Positions 4,166 through 17,329 of a DNA stretch of 64,000 nt are shown here, in pieces; positions within the stretch are counted from its first letter, which is position 1; each line of letters starts with the position of its first letter. Below the pieces are notes generated by a model, which saw only the letters and a list, made by a program, of their open reading frames with translations, was not told the origin of the DNA and ran no database searches. Position numbers and translations under genes: made by a program. Source of the DNA: Solirubrobacteraceae bacterium (GTDB lineage: Bacteria > Actinomycetota > Thermoleophilia > Solirubrobacterales > Solirubrobacteraceae); the NCBI GenBank assembly GCA_017882455.1, contig JADGPL010000011.1:1-64000 (forward strand), read 5' to 3'.

Positions 4166-5479
4166 TCAGCTGCAGCGGGGCGGCCTGCGCGCAGCCTGAA
4201 GCGTCTCGACCGCGGCCTTCGGTCCGATATACGGGGCCAGAACCGTGAAGGCGAGCTGGTCGACGAGGGAGGGAAGGCGCGAGAGGCGATTGTTGGCCAC
4301 GTAGCTGCCGATGATCCCCCACAGCGCGCCCGTGACCGCTTCCAGCGCGACGTTTGGACCACGTTGGGGGACCGGGGCGGACTCGGTGAGCAGTTTGGTG
4401 AAGCCCTCCACCGAGCGCGTCATGCGCCCGATCATGCCCGGGCCGACCTCGAAGAGGTCGATGAAGGCGATCCGCAGCAGCGCCTGATGCGCCACCAGGT
4501 ACTCGACGAAGGCGCCCATCGCCCGGTAGACGGCTTCGGGCCACGACTCCGCTCCCTCGAGGCTCGGGCGAACCGACTGCAGCGCTTCGGAGACGAATTC
4601 GTCGAGGACGGCGAGGAAGCACTCTTCCTTGTTGGCGAACTGCTTGTGGAAGGCCTCGGTGGAGATCCCCGCGAACTGGGCGATCTGCGGATCGGTCAGC
4701 GTCGCGTAGCCAGAGTCGAGCGTCAGGTGCACGACCGAACCGAGCAGCCGCGCCCGCCTGTCGTCGCGCGCGAGGAAGGCCGCCGGGGTGGGCGGAACGT
4801 GCGCCGGCTTGGCCAGGCCCAGCATCCCCAGGCGCGCTGCCGCCGGTGTGCGGTAGGACTCGATCCAGTCGAGCACTTCGTCGGTCAGCGCGTACAGCTC
4901 GCGCTCGCGGCCCTCGAGCATGCGCATGAACACCACGTGGCGCACGCCCCCGACGATCGCCCGCGAGGTCAGCTTGGGGAAGCCGACCTCGTTCGGCGCC
5001 GCCGCGAACGCGGTCGCCACCAGTCGCTCGAACGTGAAGCCGGCGAGTTGCATGCGTTCGCGGGCCTTGGGGCCGATGCCGAGCGAGTCCACCAGGACGA
5101 GGCGCGGTCCCTTCGGGCTCTCGGCCACGTCGTCGAGCAGCGTCTTGCAGGCGGCGTGGACACGATTGGCCCATCCGCGCTCGCCCGCCCACGCCTCCAG
5201 CATGCGCTTGCGCGCCCCGGCCACGACGATGTCGTAGGTGGCCAGGAAGCACTGCTCCTTGTTGGAGAACTGCTCGTAGAAGGCCCGGCGCGACACGCCC
5301 GCCAGACCGATCACGTGGGCCACGGTGGTGGCGTGGTAGCCCCGCTGCGAGATCGACTCGATCATCGCGCCGTAGAGGCGGGTCCGCTGGTTGCGGGCCA
5401 CTTCCTCTCGGTCCATACCGTTCGGCCCGTGCGGCAGCCTGCGGTACAGCGGCGCCTGCTGGCCTCTTGTTCGGCTCAT
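4166..5479 (-). CDS. Tandem TetR-family regulator (two TetR units fused)
   Basis: 437 aa containing two complete TetR-like units in one chain. The first DNA-binding helix-turn-helix is TVAHVIGLAGVSRRAFYEQFSNKEQCFLATY (about residues 50-80). The second is LTDPQIAQFAGISTEAFHKQFANKEECFLAVLDEF (about 255-290). Each is followed by a helical ligand or dimerisation region. Usual TetR proteins are 190-220 aa and dimerise, whereas this one could bind an operator as a pseudo-dimer. The frame stays open to 6046, but the promoter at 5494-5522 and loss of family similarity argue for the ATG at 5479; 5416 (MDREEV) is an alternative start. A palindrome overlapping its own promoter suggests autoregulation. 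The target is unknown. Confidence 0.85.
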   Translation of the reverse strand: MSRTRGQQAPLYRRLPHGPNGMDREEVARNQRTRLYGAMIESISQRGYHATTVAHVIGLAGVSRRAFYEQFSNKEQCFLATYDIVVAGARKRMLEAWAGERGWANRVHAACKTLLDDVAESPKGPRLVLVDSLGIGPKARERMQLAGFTFERLVATAFAAAPNEVGFPKLTSRAIVGGVRHVVFMRMLEGRERELYALTDEVLDWIESYRTPAAARLGMLGLAKPAHVPPTPAAFLARDDRRARLLGSVVHLTLDSGYATLTDPQIAQFAGISTEAFHKQFANKEECFLAVLDEFVSEALQSVRPSLEGAESWPEAVYRAMGAFVEYLVAHQALLRIAFIDLFEVGPGMIGRMTRSVEGFTKLLTESAPVPQRGPNVALEAVTGALWGIIGSYVANNRLSRLPSLVDQLAFTVLAPYIGPKAAVETLQAARRPPRCS

Positions 5480-5688: not shown

Positions 5689-10272
<4,584 letters not shown>

Positions 10273-10325: not shown

Positions 10326-13300
10326 CTACTTGTGCTTCTTCCTGCTCTTCTTGACCTTCTTTGCCTTCGGGCACCCGGTCACCTTGATCGCCGTGGTCTG
10401 TTTCAACACGGCGCCGTTCTGCCCGGTGATGAGCGTCGGCATCTTGAGCGTCTGTCCGCACATGCTTTGCTTGGCCTTGAGCGGAAGGTTCGCGGCGAGC
10501 ACCGAGTGCGGGCCCTCGCCAAAAGTGCTTTCGAAGGAGCTGATGCGAGCGTCGGGCACCGCTTCGAAGCTCTCCGAGGTGACGCCGTGCTTGATGTGGG
10601 TCTTGCCGTCCAGCAGGATCGTCACCCCTTCGCCCTGCAGTACGAACACCAGATCGGGGAGTTCCACCGATCCATGCGAGACGAGATAGGCGGGGCCGGT
10701 GAGCGGGTGCGCGAGAACAGCGCTCACAGCCTTGGCGTTGCCGACGAGCGACGCTTCGGGACATGCCGCGGGATTGGCGTTGAAGACGGTGTCGACGCAC
10801 GCTTTGTGCAGCGTCGCCAGCCGTGAGGGCAGCTGGATCGGCAGGTCGACCTTGAGCTTGCCGATGTTGGCCTGTCCCGCTCCCGACGTCACCTTCACCT
10901 GAAGCGACGCCCCGGCCGCTTTGCTCGTCTTGCCCTGCGTGCTCGCTGAGAGCGACGGCTTGAACGGCAGCGTTGCGCAGTTGGCCGCCTCGAAAGGACT
11001 CGATACCGGGCTACTCGCTCCTTCGGTCGAGCTGATCGTGCCCGTCACGGACGACGGCTGGCAGTCCGTCGGGTTGATGACGAACCCAGGACGGTTGATG
11101 TTCACGTTCACTGTCCTGATATCGAGCGGGATGCCCTGCAGGATCGTCGGGAGCGGGTTGCTCGTCACCGTGAATTGTGCCGTTCGCGGATCGACCGTGA
11201 TCCGTGCGCGCACGATTTCTGTCCCGAGGTTGAAGGGACCGGCCACCGCCGGCACGACCATCGTGAGCCCGAACGGGGCGCCACCGTAGGGACCTGTGAG
11301 GAACGCCTTGCCACCATGCACCCATACCGGGGCTTCGCCGGGGCCCGCCGATACGGTGACTTCGCCGATCTGGCTTTCGGGACCGCAGGCCCCTGTCGTC
11401 GCGGCGGGCTCGGGACACTGGACCACGCTCTTCACGACCGCTTCCAGCCCCGGGGGGCTCGTGATGGCGACCCCGCCGAATCGCTGTTCACCGTCGGCTC
11501 GCGAGAACGTGACAGAGAAGGAGCTGCTGCCAGCGGCTTGGTTGTTCTTCGTCCCGGCAACGAGGCTCGGGGCGAAGCCGCGCCCGCAGCCCGAGGAGAT
11601 CCCGAAGCCGCTCGTGAGCACGCTCGCGAGCGGGCTGCTCCAGGGAGTGAGGGAGGTGTCGATCGTGTAGGAGCCGCATGCGGGGGGCGTGACCAGCGGG
11701 GCACGTGGGCCGCCGAAGACGCCGAGCTTGATCTCGCTGACCTGCTGCTGAGGCTCGCCTTCGAACGGCGGGTTGCCTTCGAACCTCGTCGTCAGCTGTC
11801 CCGTGAGGGGGTCCGCTTCCACGTGCCCGGCGAGCTTCACGAGCACGCCGCTGCCTTCTGCGACGAGGTAGACCGCGAGCAGGGCGCCGAACGGGTTGGC
11901 GGTCTGCTGCGCCACGAAGAGCGAGCCCTTCAGCGGGAGCTTCACGGCCGGCGAGACGAGTTCAACCGTGCCGATCTTCGAGGCTTCCGGACAGCGCTCC
12001 GCTTCGACGGAGTGCAGGGCGATCTGACCTTCCGGTCGCCCTGGTTCGGGAGTGTTCGTGCAGGCTTCCAGACCGTTGGCAGCCGAGGGCGAGATCGCCA
12101 TCCCCCGGGGGAGCTGCACCACGACGTTCTTGAGCTCGGGGGTCCCGAGGCCTTCGGGCGCTTCGTTCTGCGGAACCTTGATGTCCACCGACAGGCCGCT
12201 CGGCGATTCGGCCACGCTCGTGTCGGGGGTGATCTGGGCTTCCGGGCTGAACTGCAATGCGCCGCAGCCGACGACCGGCGGAGATTCGGTCTTGGCGGCC
12301 TTCCAGCGCGGGTCGCTGAGCACGGGGGCTCCGTTTGCATCCAGGGGTCCCGGGTTCTGCCAGGAGTCGACGTGCAATTCGGTCGTGAACGCAGGACCGC
12401 AGTCCATCGGGTTCGTGAACATGGCGATCGGCGAGCCACCGCTTTCGTCATGCGCAGCCGGATCGCCGAAGAAGATGGCACGTACGCCGCTGATGGGCAG
12501 GGCCCGCGGAAGCGGAGCGCTGGTGACACGCAGGCCGTAGTCCGTGCCGGTGCGAACGCTTGCATACATCACCACGGAGCGACCCAGGAGCGGATCGAAC
12601 ACGCCGAACTCCGCCGGATAGCCCTGCTCGGGGACGATGCTGTAGATCGGTAGCGCGCGCTCGACTCCAGGCTGGGTGATGTGGGGCTCGATCAACTCGA
12701 GCGTTCCGACCTGTGTGCTGTGGGCGCAGTTGCCGAAGTTCGTCAGATCGGTCAGCGAGCAGGTGGGCGTCGCCTGCGGATTGCCGACTATCCCCGCAGG
12801 AAGGTCGAAGACGATCTGGCGTATGTCCTCGACGGGCAGCGCATCCCTCTGCCCGCCGAGCGTGAGTGTGTTGACGCTCGGCACGTCGAAGGACGTGAAC
12901 AACGCATCGGGATGATCGCCGGCGACGGTGTCCGTTGCGCCGGTGCCATCCAGTGCGGATGCCCGCAGCGTGAGCAGACCGAACGGCGAGGACGTCGACC
13001 CTATCGGTGTCGGCGTCGTGTCCGATGGGCACACCGGCTGGCCGGACCCGCCGCATTCCGGCGCCCCGCCACCCGAGACTTCTACGACGTTTTCCACCGT
13101 ACCCGATACAGCGGTGGTCGCGACCGGGATGAAGATCGCACGCGCGTGCGCCAGGTTGCGCACCGTTTCGCTGGATGTACAGGTCACAACGCTCTGACCG
13201 GCGCCTTCGGGAAGACATTCCCAGCCGCCTTCGTTGCCGAAGGGCGTAGCCGACGTCGTGACGCCGGCGGGCAGATGGTCGACGACCGTGATCGTGCCGC

Positions 13301-13601
13301 TGGATGACACAGCGCCTATGTTCGAGATCGTGACCGTGTACTGGTCGATTTTGTCGCTCGCCTGGAAGTTCGTAGGCTGGGCGACGGACTCGATCGCCCA
13401 GGCTACGCCCTTGCCGGCTGCGAGCGCCGAGGGTGCGCCTGTGGAGGCCAGCATCGCGACCGCGGCAATCAGCCCGAAGCCCACACGGGCCGCGTTGGAT
13501 CGCGTGCGACGCATCGCGTCGGACGGGCTCGCGTGATCGCAGCAGCTCGGCCTCATCTCCTCGATGTCCATCGCCCGGGGTCGCCTGAACGGTGTCCTCA
13601 T
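10326..13601 (-). CDS. Very large secreted beta-rich protein with lysine-rich tail
   Basis: 1,091 aa of unknown function. A signal peptide lies at about residues 30-65 (RSNAARVGFGLIAAVAMLAS...ALAAG). A DUF11-like beta domain follows (DKIDQYTVTISNIGAVSSSG, VVDHLPAGV). Then come several repeats of a segment built around VQLPRGM or FDLPAGI, PTCSLTDL, CPEASKIGTVELVSP and PLTGPAYLV. The end is GQNGAVLKQTTAIKVTGCPK followed by a tail of nearly only K, R and H. The ATG at 13601 overlaps the stop of the upstream gene (TGATG), so translation is coupled and a longer N-terminal reading is not needed. I recall this as a lineage-specific surface-protein type in Thermoleophilia. Glutamate codons are mainly GAA, unlike the helicase gene downstream. 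Confidence 0.82.
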   Translation of the reverse strand: MRTPFRRPRAMDIEEMRPSCCDHASPSDAMRRTRSNAARVGFGLIAAVAMLASTGAPSALAAGKGVAWAIESVAQPTNFQASDKIDQYTVTISNIGAVSSSGTITVVDHLPAGVTTSATPFGNEGGWECLPEGAGQSVVTCTSSETVRNLAHARAIFIPVATTAVSGTVENVVEVSGGGAPECGGSGQPVCPSDTTPTPIGSTSSPFGLLTLRASALDGTGATDTVAGDHPDALFTSFDVPSVNTLTLGGQRDALPVEDIRQIVFDLPAGIVGNPQATPTCSLTDLTNFGNCAHSTQVGTLELIEPHITQPGVERALPIYSIVPEQGYPAEFGVFDPLLGRSVVMYASVRTGTDYGLRVTSAPLPRALPISGVRAIFFGDPAAHDESGGSPIAMFTNPMDCGPAFTTELHVDSWQNPGPLDANGAPVLSDPRWKAAKTESPPVVGCGALQFSPEAQITPDTSVAESPSGLSVDIKVPQNEAPEGLGTPELKNVVVQLPRGMAISPSAANGLEACTNTPEPGRPEGQIALHSVEAERCPEASKIGTVELVSPAVKLPLKGSLFVAQQTANPFGALLAVYLVAEGSGVLVKLAGHVEADPLTGQLTTRFEGNPPFEGEPQQQVSEIKLGVFGGPRAPLVTPPACGSYTIDTSLTPWSSPLASVLTSGFGISSGCGRGFAPSLVAGTKNNQAAGSSSFSVTFSRADGEQRFGGVAITSPPGLEAVVKSVVQCPEPAATTGACGPESQIGEVTVSAGPGEAPVWVHGGKAFLTGPYGGAPFGLTMVVPAVAGPFNLGTEIVRARITVDPRTAQFTVTSNPLPTILQGIPLDIRTVNVNINRPGFVINPTDCQPSSVTGTISSTEGASSPVSSPFEAANCATLPFKPSLSASTQGKTSKAAGASLQVKVTSGAGQANIGKLKVDLPIQLPSRLATLHKACVDTVFNANPAACPEASLVGNAKAVSAVLAHPLTGPAYLVSHGSVELPDLVFVLQGEGVTILLDGKTHIKHGVTSESFEAVPDARISSFESTFGEGPHSVLAANLPLKAKQSMCGQTLKMPTLITGQNGAVLKQTTAIKVTGCPKAKKVKKSRKKHK

Positions 13602-15883
13602 CACTTGCCTCTCCGGGTCGACTTGTTCGCCTTGGTGCTCGCCTTCTGGCCGTAGCTGCGTTTCGCCGCTGCTTCGCAGCGCTTTCGCTTCTTCTTGTTG
13701 CGTTTGGTCCTGCATGCCTTCAGCGCCTGCTTCAGCTTCGCGGCCCTGATCTGCGCAGCCGTCTGCTTCGGGGGGGACGGCTGCGCCGGCAGGTTCCCGT
13801 CGCCTGAGAGCGTGTTGCTGGCGAGGCCGCCGACTTCCGGGCCGCTCGTGGAGCTGCCGCGGCACTGTTCTCCCAGGCATTCCCTGGCGGGCGGCGGCCC
13901 CGGCACCCCACCGTCGATTCGCGCGTCGTAGATGTCAAGCTGGGTGTCGGTATCCTGCGACGCCAGCCGGTCGCCCGTGGTGAAGAACACATCGCTACCC
14001 GACCTGCTCGCGCCGATCAGGTTGACTCCGCTCGCATTGAAGATCACGTCCCGGTCCTGTCCGTCGGTCAGCAGGTACACGTGGCCGTCGTGGTACTCAT
14101 AGACGTTGTTCGCGAGAGCGCCTTCGCTGTTGATCGTCTGGTCGTTCAGCGCCCCTTCGGTCAAGGCGCCAGAGCCGAAGAAGAAGACGTATTCGCCGTT
14201 ATCCGAGACGCTCACCGGTGCGCTGCGGGCCGAGCCATGCCCCACAGTGGCCGGAGCGTTCATGAAATAGGAGTCGCCCGAGTTACCCTTGTTGTTGAAT
14301 CCGTTCTCTCCGATCGACACCCGGATCAGCTTCCCCGTGTCGGCGTCGTAGCGATAAAGCTGCGAGCCGGATCCTCCGGCGTCGGGAGTCAGGTCGCCGG
14401 TGCTGTTGAACACCAAATAGCGCCCGTCCGGCGTCACCTCGGTCGGCCCATCGGCCGTCAGCCTCCAATCCGCTTCGTCGGCTTCCGGGAGGGTCGCGAT
14501 TTCGCGGGTGATTCCAGGGGGGCTTTCGTAGAGCTTCAGGTGACCCCCTTCGGTCACGTAGTAGACGCGCGAGCCGTCTTCGGAGCTGCGCACAACGCCG
14601 AGCACGCCCTTCGAGATCAGGGACAGCTTGTGTCCGCTCGGAGCTTCGAAGTTGTACTCGTAGAGGTTTCGCGCTTCGTTTTCTTCGTTGTCTTCTGAGC
14701 CTGGCAACAGAGTCTGTTTGCTCAGGAAGAACACCTTCTGCCCGTTGCGCGACGCTCCCTGGTAGACGGCGGCGCGCTGTTCACTGAGGTCACATTCTTC
14801 GCAGTCCGCGTGGGAGGGCTCCGAAAGAGCCACCGTTTCCCTGCTTCCATCGGCGTGTTCGACGCGTGCGTCGACTTCCGCGACGGCTGGGCCGGTGCCT
14901 GTTTTTCCTTCCTGGGAGCACCCCCCCCTGCGAGCGGTGAAGAACACCGCGCTCCCGTCTTCCGAGATGGCATTGTCGGTGTTCCCGCTACCTGATTCTT
15001 CCCCCACGTGCATGCCCAGGTAAACCCCGCATTGGGTGATCGGTTCGCCGTTGTTCTTGACGCCGACCAGGGCCGGCACGTCCGTCCCGGTGCCTGTGTG
15101 GCCGGTGCCGACATACTCGTAGAGCGAAGCGAAGGCGACCGTCGTGTCGCCGGGCCACACGAAGTTCGTTTTGCCTTCGACCTTCGTGGAGTAGAACAGC
15201 ACCCTCGAGAGGTCCCGCGACGCGCCGGCGTACGTCGCTGCCGGTTCGTCGAATTCCCCGGGGGTCCATTCTTCTATGGCCCCGTGCGGTATCAGGGGGC
15301 CAACTTCGGCCAGGCTCCCGTCGAGGCTCCCGTCGGCTTCGTGGATGTAGAAGCGCTGGTCGATGGGGCGAGCGGATATGGGTATCTCTGCGAGCAGCGC
15401 ACGCTTGAAGTCTTCGCTCGTTTCGACAACGGCCGTATTCAGGCGTGAGCTGTTGTTGAACTGCGCCGCCGGCGGTTCGATCGAAGTCGATTGCCAGCCC
15501 GTGGGCGTCCTCGAGACGTCATAGAAGGCGCCTTCGGCGCCCACGTCGTCCGCTGCTTCACCAAAGGCCCCGAGGCTCCACATCCCCAAGTGTTCTGAGT
15601 TGGCGGCGGCGAACGAAAAGGGAAGCTCGCCGTACTTGAACGCGGGCGTTACGAGCTCGTACGCGCGGCAGTCGGGGAGCTTCGCCGACCCTCCGGTGCG
15701 GAGCGAAGCATTGGCGCACGTGTCCGCGGCGGCGCCTGGAGCGCCCGCCAGCAGGCACGCGGCCGCTGCTGTCGAAGCCAGAGTCAACCCGCCCGCGCCC
15801 AGCCGTCTCCGACCGCCACGGGTCACGCGCTCGCGCCCGCCCACGACCAGCGAACTCCAAGTGCTCGATTTGCGCCACATCAT
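13601..15883 (-). CDS. Large secreted propeller-like protein (CRAYELVTP family) with basic tail
   Basis: 760 aa, probably exported. The N-terminus MMWRKSSTWSSL carries a long signal region with hydrophobic core LTLASTAAAACLLAGAPG and a cut near AAADT. Next is the motif LPDCRAYELVTPAFKYG. Repeated blade-like units follow (for example YLVFNSTGDLTPDAGG, LYRYDADTGKLIRVS, YVFFFGSGALT), which read like PD40/TolB beta-propeller blades. The C-terminal LKACRTKRNKKKRKRCEAAAKRSYG leads into a K/R-rich tail. The start is fixed by a GGGGAGAGG ribosome site 9-10 nt before the ATG at 15883. Its stop overlaps the start of the 1,091-aa partner gene. The function is unknown, with a cell-surface role inferred. 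Confidence 0.82.
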   Translation of the reverse strand: MMWRKSSTWSSLVVGGRERVTRGGRRRLGAGGLTLASTAAAACLLAGAPGAAADTCANASLRTGGSAKLPDCRAYELVTPAFKYGELPFSFAAANSEHLGMWSLGAFGEAADDVGAEGAFYDVSRTPTGWQSTSIEPPAAQFNNSSRLNTAVVETSEDFKRALLAEIPISARPIDQRFYIHEADGSLDGSLAEVGPLIPHGAIEEWTPGEFDEPAATYAGASRDLSRVLFYSTKVEGKTNFVWPGDTTVAFASLYEYVGTGHTGTGTDVPALVGVKNNGEPITQCGVYLGMHVGEESGSGNTDNAISEDGSAVFFTARRGGCSQEGKTGTGPAVAEVDARVEHADGSRETVALSEPSHADCEECDLSEQRAAVYQGASRNGQKVFFLSKQTLLPGSEDNEENEARNLYEYNFEAPSGHKLSLISKGVLGVVRSSEDGSRVYYVTEGGHLKLYESPPGITREIATLPEADEADWRLTADGPTEVTPDGRYLVFNSTGDLTPDAGGSGSQLYRYDADTGKLIRVSIGENGFNNKGNSGDSYFMNAPATVGHGSARSAPVSVSDNGEYVFFFGSGALTEGALNDQTINSEGALANNVYEYHDGHVYLLTDGQDRDVIFNASGVNLIGASRSGSDVFFTTGDRLASQDTDTQLDIYDARIDGGVPGPPPARECLGEQCRGSSTSGPEVGGLASNTLSGDGNLPAQPSPPKQTAAQIRAAKLKQALKACRTKRNKKKRKRCEAAAKRSYGQKASTKANKSTRRGK

Positions 15884-16509: not shown

Positions 16510-16663
16510 TGGATAGGTCCTCTGCGTTTCACCAAGAGCGCATCTGACTTGGGTCGCACAGGGCTATATAGAGGAGTGCCACCTACCTGCTTGCTCGCAG
16601 TGAGCATGTGGACTGGTGGCACACAAACACAAGCGCCCTGCGACCGCGGGGCGATGGAGGTTC

Positions 16664-17329
16664 ATGTTCGTGTCCAACAAGCTCAGGCTGGTTGCTGCCA
16701 GCGCAATTGCAATGCTCGCACTGGGCGGCGCCGTGGCTTCGGCCTCCGCAGCCACAGTGCACCTGGTCGTAGCCGGCGTAACGGCTAAAAGCGGCGAAAG
16801 CTTCGCGGTGACCGGCTCGAAAACGCCTGAAACCAACGCGGAACTCAAAGTGGAAGGTGGCCCGATCGTCAAGTGCACCATCGCCGCCGGCACAGGCGAA
16901 CTGACCCAGTCCACATCGCTGTTCGGAAAAGCAGTCGTGATCAAATTCACCACCTGTAAAGTGACCAACAGCAAAACCACAGAAGAAAACTGTGAAGTCA
17001 AAGAAGTCGTCGCCAAGGGCAAGAGCAAAGAACTCGAAAGCACGTCTGAAGCGACGCTGATTCAGAACATCGAACCAGCCGAACCGTTCTCGAAGGTGAC
17101 GATTAAATCCGTCACTGGCAAAACCTGCTCACTCGCAGCCAGCGAACAGGAAGTCGTCGGACAGCAGGTAATCACGCTGCCCAAAAGCACAGAAGAAAAA
17201 ACCTCTCACGAACTCGTTGCGGCTGCATCGGGAAGCGCTCTCAAATACGCGGGCAAAGTGGCCACATTCGTTTTGAACGAGACCATCAAACTCAGCACCG
17301 AAAAAGCCTTCAAGTTGACGACGCCGTAA
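16664..17329 (+). CDS. Small secreted protein of unknown function
   Basis: About 221 aa. The signal peptide NKLRLVAASAIAMLALGGAVASASA is followed by a mature all-beta-looking domain with four cysteines (KCTIA, TTCKV, ENCEV, KTCSL), which could make two disulfides. No enzyme motif is seen. The start is uncertain: GTG 16616, ATG 16664 and GTG 16670 are in frame, and a GGAGG at 16656-16660 favours one of the last two. Composition is striking, with lysine mostly AAA and glutamate nearly all GAA, opposite to most neighbours. It is divergent from the 760-aa secreted-protein gene and may belong to the same surface-protein set. Confidence 0.72.
   Translation: MFVSNKLRLVAASAIAMLALGGAVASASAATVHLVVAGVTAKSGESFAVTGSKTPETNAELKVEGGPIVKCTIAAGTGELTQSTSLFGKAVVIKFTTCKVTNSKTTEENCEVKEVVAKGKSKELESTSEATLIQNIEPAEPFSKVTIKSVTGKTCSLAASEQEVVGQQVITLPKSTEEKTSHELVAAASGSALKYAGKVATFVLNETIKLSTEKAFKLTTP

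Follow-up and report, generated by a model that had tools for sequence, protein, structure and literature searches.

The 64,000-nucleotide stretch analysed here (the window; contig JADGPL010000011.1 of a Solirubrobacteraceae bacterium, positions 1 to 64,000) carries on its reverse strand two overlapping open reading frames (ORFs) encoding large, apparently exported proteins. They are referred to below as A, an exported propeller of the CRAYELVTP family (760 aa), and B, its partner (1,091 aa); C designates a module composed of an NHL propeller and FN3 that occurs in relatives of the pair. All coordinates are those of the window. Both frames and their overlap, as reported in a first-pass annotation, were confirmed from the sequence; the A frame runs from an ATG at 15883 to a TGA stop at 13601. 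The pair consists of the following features, the structural models being AlphaFold2 (AF2) predictions scored by the predicted local distance difference test (pLDDT):

13601..15883, reverse strand: gene A, exported beta-propeller protein, 760 aa (ORF; model pLDDT 80; 39-member alignment)
15725..15883, reverse strand: putative signal peptide of A, residues 1-53 (sequence features alone: basic n-region, hydrophobic stretch, AAA|D)
13916..15667, reverse strand: predicted single open 8-9-bladed beta-propeller of A, residues 73-656 (AF2 model; fold matches; PD40)
13652..13759, reverse strand: basic helical-hairpin tail of A, residues 709-744, with two Cys (AF2 pLDDT >90 in the core)
13599..13604, reverse strand: overlap of the A stop and the B start, GTGATG (sequence; kept in paralogues and homologues)
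10326..13601, reverse strand: gene B, exported partner, 1,091 aa (ORF; model pLDDT 89; 64-member alignment)
13416..13601, reverse strand: N-terminal extension and putative signal peptide of B, residues 1-62 (sequence; hydrophobic segment as in 86 coupled starts)
12996..13415, reverse strand: Ig/DUF11(CLIPPER)-like domain of B, residues 63-202, optional in the family (VIA fold match)
12267..12995, reverse strand: module 1 of B (hhalign to modules 2-4, E 1e-21 to 2e-12)
11598..12266, reverse strand: module 2 of B (hhalign to the other modules, E 8e-19 to 2e-27)
10980..11597, reverse strand: module 3 of B, holding the most conserved stretch of the pair (hhalign; conservation)
10368..10979, reverse strand: module 4 of B (hhalign)
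10329..10367, reverse strand: basic C-terminal tail of B, KAKKVKKSRKKHK (sequence)

The A/B junction reads ...GGAGAGGCAAGTGATGAGG, and the final A of the TGA of gene A is the first A of the ATG of gene B. An in-frame GTG at -4 creates a classic GTGA overlap, so that B has two start options, GTG (-4) or ATG (-1). Of the possible B starts, the one at the overlap has the best Shine-Dalgarno-like sequence, which is purine-rich and lies just upstream. Further in-frame ATGs are found 29, 44, and 86 nt downstream of the overlap start; because the overlap is conserved, the start of B was nevertheless placed there, the exact start of the window copy remaining provisional. Among 92 unique A-B junctions, the 4-nt overlap was found in 64 and an overlap of only 1 nt in two more. 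A B-frame start lies within 10 nt of the A stop in 86 of the 92 pairs, whereas elsewhere the mean per position is 1.5 in-frame starts, and each of these 86 coupled starts is followed by a hydrophobic, signal-peptide-like segment. Since a B-frame start falls at -4 in 64 of the 92 pairs and within 10 nt in 86, against this mean of 1.5 per position, a chance origin of the overlap was ruled out. Judged by gene anatomy, these observations support translational coupling of A and B. A fixed ratio of the two products, which the first-pass annotation had read from the overlap, does not follow, as coupling by itself sets no ratio.

The occurrence of the pair was surveyed from the A side in 61 relatives and three Conexibacter genomes, and from the B side by a scan of GTDB; the surveys drew partly on contigs of metagenome-assembled genomes (MAGs). 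The source genome contains four A-B pairs and two solo relatives of B, three of the pairs having the order A-B and one (contig 36) the order B-A. The 61 relatives yielded at least 82 merged A loci, the locus numbers per genome being lower bounds; all 79 assessable loci adjoin a B gene, and the other three are located at contig ends. The first-listed 58 pairs of this survey comprise 55 in the order A-B and 3 in the order B-A. Searching the three Conexibacter genomes from the A side revealed B directly downstream in 19 of 19 copies (L162 included). The GTDB scan returned 79 B loci in Solirubrobacterales MAGs, Conexibacter isolates, Patulibacter, and others, of which 65 have a same-strand A upstream and 14 represent B alone or tandem B. 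Every checkable A thus comes with B, whereas B has a solo branch. The conserved pairing across Thermoleophilia, for which the first-pass annotation had proposed a neighbourhood check, was therefore borne out from the A side (79/79 and 19/19 loci in Solirubrobacterales), and the families do not usually occur apart as far as A is concerned; for B, with its solo and tandem copies, separate occurrence is partly true.

Solo B genes have a context of their own. At seven such loci (L155, L179, L181, L184, L186, L188, and L198) the neighbours are conserved across loci and no A was seen beside B; one conserved neighbour is a membrane protein resembling a CHASE3-type sensor. Where the stop of a solo B gene is reached, the C-terminal extension is mostly of another kind. 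In genus g17, which belongs to the same order, two open frames of 7,223 and 5,628 codons (G042:C7:254270-259498 and G039:C7:15035-24382) encode many consecutive B-type modules. Three-gene tandem arrays of B type lacking A were observed in MAGs of divergent Actinomycetota and Thermoleophilia (L205, L206, and L207).

The two members of the pair have diverged together. In the genome G016, which contains 21 paralogous pairs, A and B distances are correlated with r = 0.775, while partner shuffles within this genome gave a mean of 0.00 and a maximum of 0.40, none of 2,000 being as high as observed; related pairs, though divergent, are not statistically independent. Duplication and divergence thus affect A and B jointly, as one unit. 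Pairwise identity in G016 ranges from 27 to 77% for A (median 38%) and from 42 to 81% for B (median 49%), and in all 210 comparisons within the genome A was the less conserved of the two. The locus L141 (RYN_261) keeps the window order IclR, A, B, Lhr; in comparison with the window, IclR is 88% and Lhr 79% identical, whereas A is 33% and B 40% identical. The pair at L141 has either evolved very fast or been exchanged for another paralogue. An Lhr gene lies beside the pair in three congeners altogether (window 5689-10272; L141; L143), with flanks 79-88% identical and the pair 27-40% identical; as these Lhr-adjacent pairs differ in orientation and diverge far beyond their flanks, a turnover site is suggested. 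At L143 (MAG MGR_bin406) the pair adjoins Lhr in another orientation.

Natural one-chain fusions were also found, namely C-A-B at L119 and B-A at L120; in the latter no second signal peptide was seen between the halves. Module C is present in many relatives and is mostly fused to the N-terminus of A, other arrangements being a separate gene after B or a fusion to B. The window pair has no C, which is why the module was missed in the first-pass annotation. Co-divergence together with natural fusions argues for A and B forming one complex.

Protein A had been described as propeller-like, and the predicted structure agrees. The propeller was matched by VIA to that of DPP IV (5yp1_D) with Z 13.4 (366 residues aligned, root-mean-square deviation (rmsd) 4.8) and next to eIF2A (8dys) with Z 13.3, the nearest folds overall being the DPP IV and eIF2A/eIF3b propellers. 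At the sequence level a single marginal PD40 match was obtained with Pfam (21.9 bits, cut-off 20.9), and the TolB profile matched weakly (E 0.11 over about 80 profile positions); the propeller identity of A rests on the model. No hydrolase Pfam match was found in A, and in the model the propeller is followed only by the helical hairpin. Peptidase activity, as might be read from the DPP IV fold match, was rejected since an alpha/beta-hydrolase domain is missing. The Pfam scan detected no adhesive domain in A or B.

Protein B combines an Ig/DUF11-like domain with four modules. Residues 63-202 matched 9ifr in VIA with Z 12.6 over 121 residues (rmsd 2.7), which assigns them a CnaA/Ig-like fold. 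Under curated cut-offs this domain stays below threshold, with 15.6 of 24 bits for the NCBIfam DUF11 repeat and 15.7 of 26.5 bits for Pfam DUF7933; the type corresponds to the CLIPPER domain of PMC12617251. It occurs once in the window protein, and many paired B proteins lack it, judging from the start positions of hidden Markov model matches. The four modules are homologous to each other and contain recurrent cysteines (profile-profile E 2e-12 to 2e-27). They matched no Pfam, NCBIfam, or PDB sequence, and B as a whole gave no sequence relative in the PDB, in agreement with the earlier statement that neither protein belongs to a named system; VIA matches of B came almost entirely from the Ig domain, so that the module folds were barely compared with solved structures. 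The proposal that DUF11-like repeats build the stalk was rejected: the DUF11-like domain is single, below cut-off, and often missing, and the predicted rod consists of four copies of a different, unmatched module.

Neither a sortase motif nor a C-terminal hydrophobic helix was found in any of 99 A and 142 B proteins. The last 40 residues carry a median net charge of +15 in A and +11 in B, compared with +1 in the remaining long ORFs of the window, a set that may include frames other than true genes. In Conexibacter and Patulibacter the hairpin is replaced by a different basic tail that looks beta-rich by sequence. As sortase motif and C-terminal transmembrane anchor are lacking in both proteins, it is proposed that the basic tails, either K/R-rich or folded as a helical hairpin, probably serve to attach the complex to anionic polymers of the wall, or the proteins to one another. 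The two-cysteine hairpin tail has six matches in the source genome, five of them in A or B proteins; the sixth (L213, G000:C44:138111-138224) belongs to a small protein with an open frame of 264 aa and a signal-peptide-like N-terminus.

Among the genes around the pairs, a TetR-type regulator is the immediate same-strand neighbour of the pair at 14 of 79 loci, about 3 being expected from the background density; these loci come mostly from two genomes. The regulator loci and the downstream neighbour of B in the window are:

L129, L130, L131, L132, L134-L136, L142, L144-L146, L154, L166, and L182: loci with an adjacent TetR gene
5689-10272 of the window: Lhr-type helicase gene, downstream neighbour of B

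In the window itself, a tandem two-domain TetR protein (4201-5413, reverse strand) is separated from B by the Lhr-type helicase. Antisense within the Lhr gene, ARAGORN predicted a tRNA-Ser (cga) at 9744-9825 (forward strand), which is probably spurious. Upstream of A, at 16616-17329 (forward strand), lies a divergently transcribed gene for a small protein whose N-terminus resembles a signal peptide. A defence or phage origin of the pair was rejected, PADLOC and PHROGs searches being empty.

Taken together, the presence of B beside every checkable A, the co-divergence, and the fusions support an obligate A-B complex in which the propeller head varies while the modular scaffold is conserved; the physical association, although deduced from sequence data, is well supported. 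We consider it rather probable that A and B make up an exported complex for recognition or adhesion in which both are obligate subunits and which is probably associated with the cell surface. Both proteins would be secreted via their signal peptides, and coupled translation from one mRNA would let them assemble together. A may act as the fast-evolving, ligand-facing head, to which most relatives add an N-terminal C arm (NHL propeller and FN3), and B as the conserved scaffold, a rod rich in cysteines and built from four repeats of one module, to which an Ig/DUF11 domain is an optional addition. By multiplying the pair as a unit while the heads diverge, lineages could acquire a repertoire of binding specificities. 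Recognition or adhesion appears to be the most likely function because of the missing catalytic domain, the variable head, and the expanded repertoire; surface location, charge anchoring, ligand binding, and the identity of the ligand are presumptive. The "one surface complex" of the first-pass annotation is therefore supported as regards the complex, by co-divergence and fusions, while its place at the surface is presumptive, no cell-surface anchor motif having been found. Several observations weigh against the proposed complex. In three pairs B precedes A; solo and tandem relatives of B occur without A, so that B can work alone in some lineages; the linker in the L119 fusion may hide an assembly frameshift; and the fast divergence may reflect relaxed constraint or paralogue replacement instead of selection on binding.

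The presence in one genome of many paralogous pairs, exported and translationally coupled, would also suit a device for the capture of polymers or nutrients, an actinobacterial functional analogue of SusC/SusD in which each pair has its own polysaccharide or organic compound and its own regulator. The excess of adjoining same-strand TetR genes fits this explanation, but the association concerns a minority of loci, the downstream neighbour in the window is an Lhr-type helicase, and neither a hydrolase nor a lectin domain nor a transporter was noticed next to the pairs, whose neighbours were not annotated systematically; we regard it as unlikely. The rod-like modular B, the basic tails, the high copy number, and the lack of a detected catalytic domain are what would be expected from a structural wall coat or an extracellular matrix without a specific ligand. 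Coats, however, are usually conserved and few, whereas the 21 pairs in one genome have diverged, the head fastest, and many congeners possess few or no A copies, which makes a coat somewhat less likely still. Kin recognition or antagonism between neighbouring cells, that is, a polymorphic surface recognition system, would account for repertoires that differ strongly between close relatives, for the divergence of a syntenic pair far beyond its flanks, and for the modular shuffling of heads and tails. As no toxin, immunity, or defence domain was found with PADLOC and PHROGs, this explanation seems improbable.

Thermoleophilia are common soil actinobacteria and a poorly known class; literature searches found no description of these proteins or of such surface biology in this class. 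As a more tentative extension, Thermoleophilia may possess an undescribed, lineage-expanded repertoire of A/B and often C complexes, in which the pair is duplicated as a unit, propeller heads are diversified, some copies have their own TetR, and each complex recognises a different ligand. Such a modular system for extracellular recognition, in a monoderm phylum, would be comparable in scale to SusCD repertoires; at least 21 pairs occupy several percent of one 3.3 Mb genome. An exported complex of two or three parts whose divergence far outpaces that of its flanking genes is likely to play a central role in the dealings of these cells with their surroundings, and B adds a four-module protein family absent from Pfam. 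Homologous loci in the cultured Conexibacter arvalis and Patulibacter medicamentivorans make the pair experimentally accessible now.

Comparison with known systems places the pair beside several of them. The propellers of prolyl-oligopeptidase and DPP IV resemble A in being open single propellers of similar size and provide the best solved fold match; in contrast to these S9 enzymes, A has no alpha/beta-hydrolase domain and shares 11% identity. TolB/PD40 proteins share PD40-type blades with A, the sequence match to TolB being weak; A differs in its tail and its constant partner B, and no Tol-Pal context was noticed beside the pairs. SusC/SusD of Bacteroidota form many paralogous exported gene pairs per genome that are inherited as units, as A-B pairs do; however, the folds are unrelated, A and B being modelled as a propeller and a rod of beta-modules, with neither a TonB-dependent outer-membrane barrel nor a helical lipoprotein. 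Also among the closest known systems are the fibrillar adhesins (PMC9210967, PMC12617251); like the pair, they are secreted proteins of large size and modular build, in which repeated beta domains form a rod, with a DUF11/CLIPPER-like domain (one in the pair) and a probable binding head. B possesses the repetitive stalk of fibrillar-adhesin-like proteins, with 1,091 aa, a signal-peptide-like N-terminus, and four modules plus the Ig domain. Unlike fibrillar adhesins, the pair splits head and rod over two coupled genes, its head is a predicted beta-propeller in which Pfam showed no adhesive domain, and its rod is made of four modules that lack a match in any searched family, with no sortase or membrane anchor. 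The pair is not classed as a fibrillar adhesin because the anchor expected of that class (PMC9210967) was not found, yet its mode of action would resemble that of a fibrillar adhesin divided over two chains.
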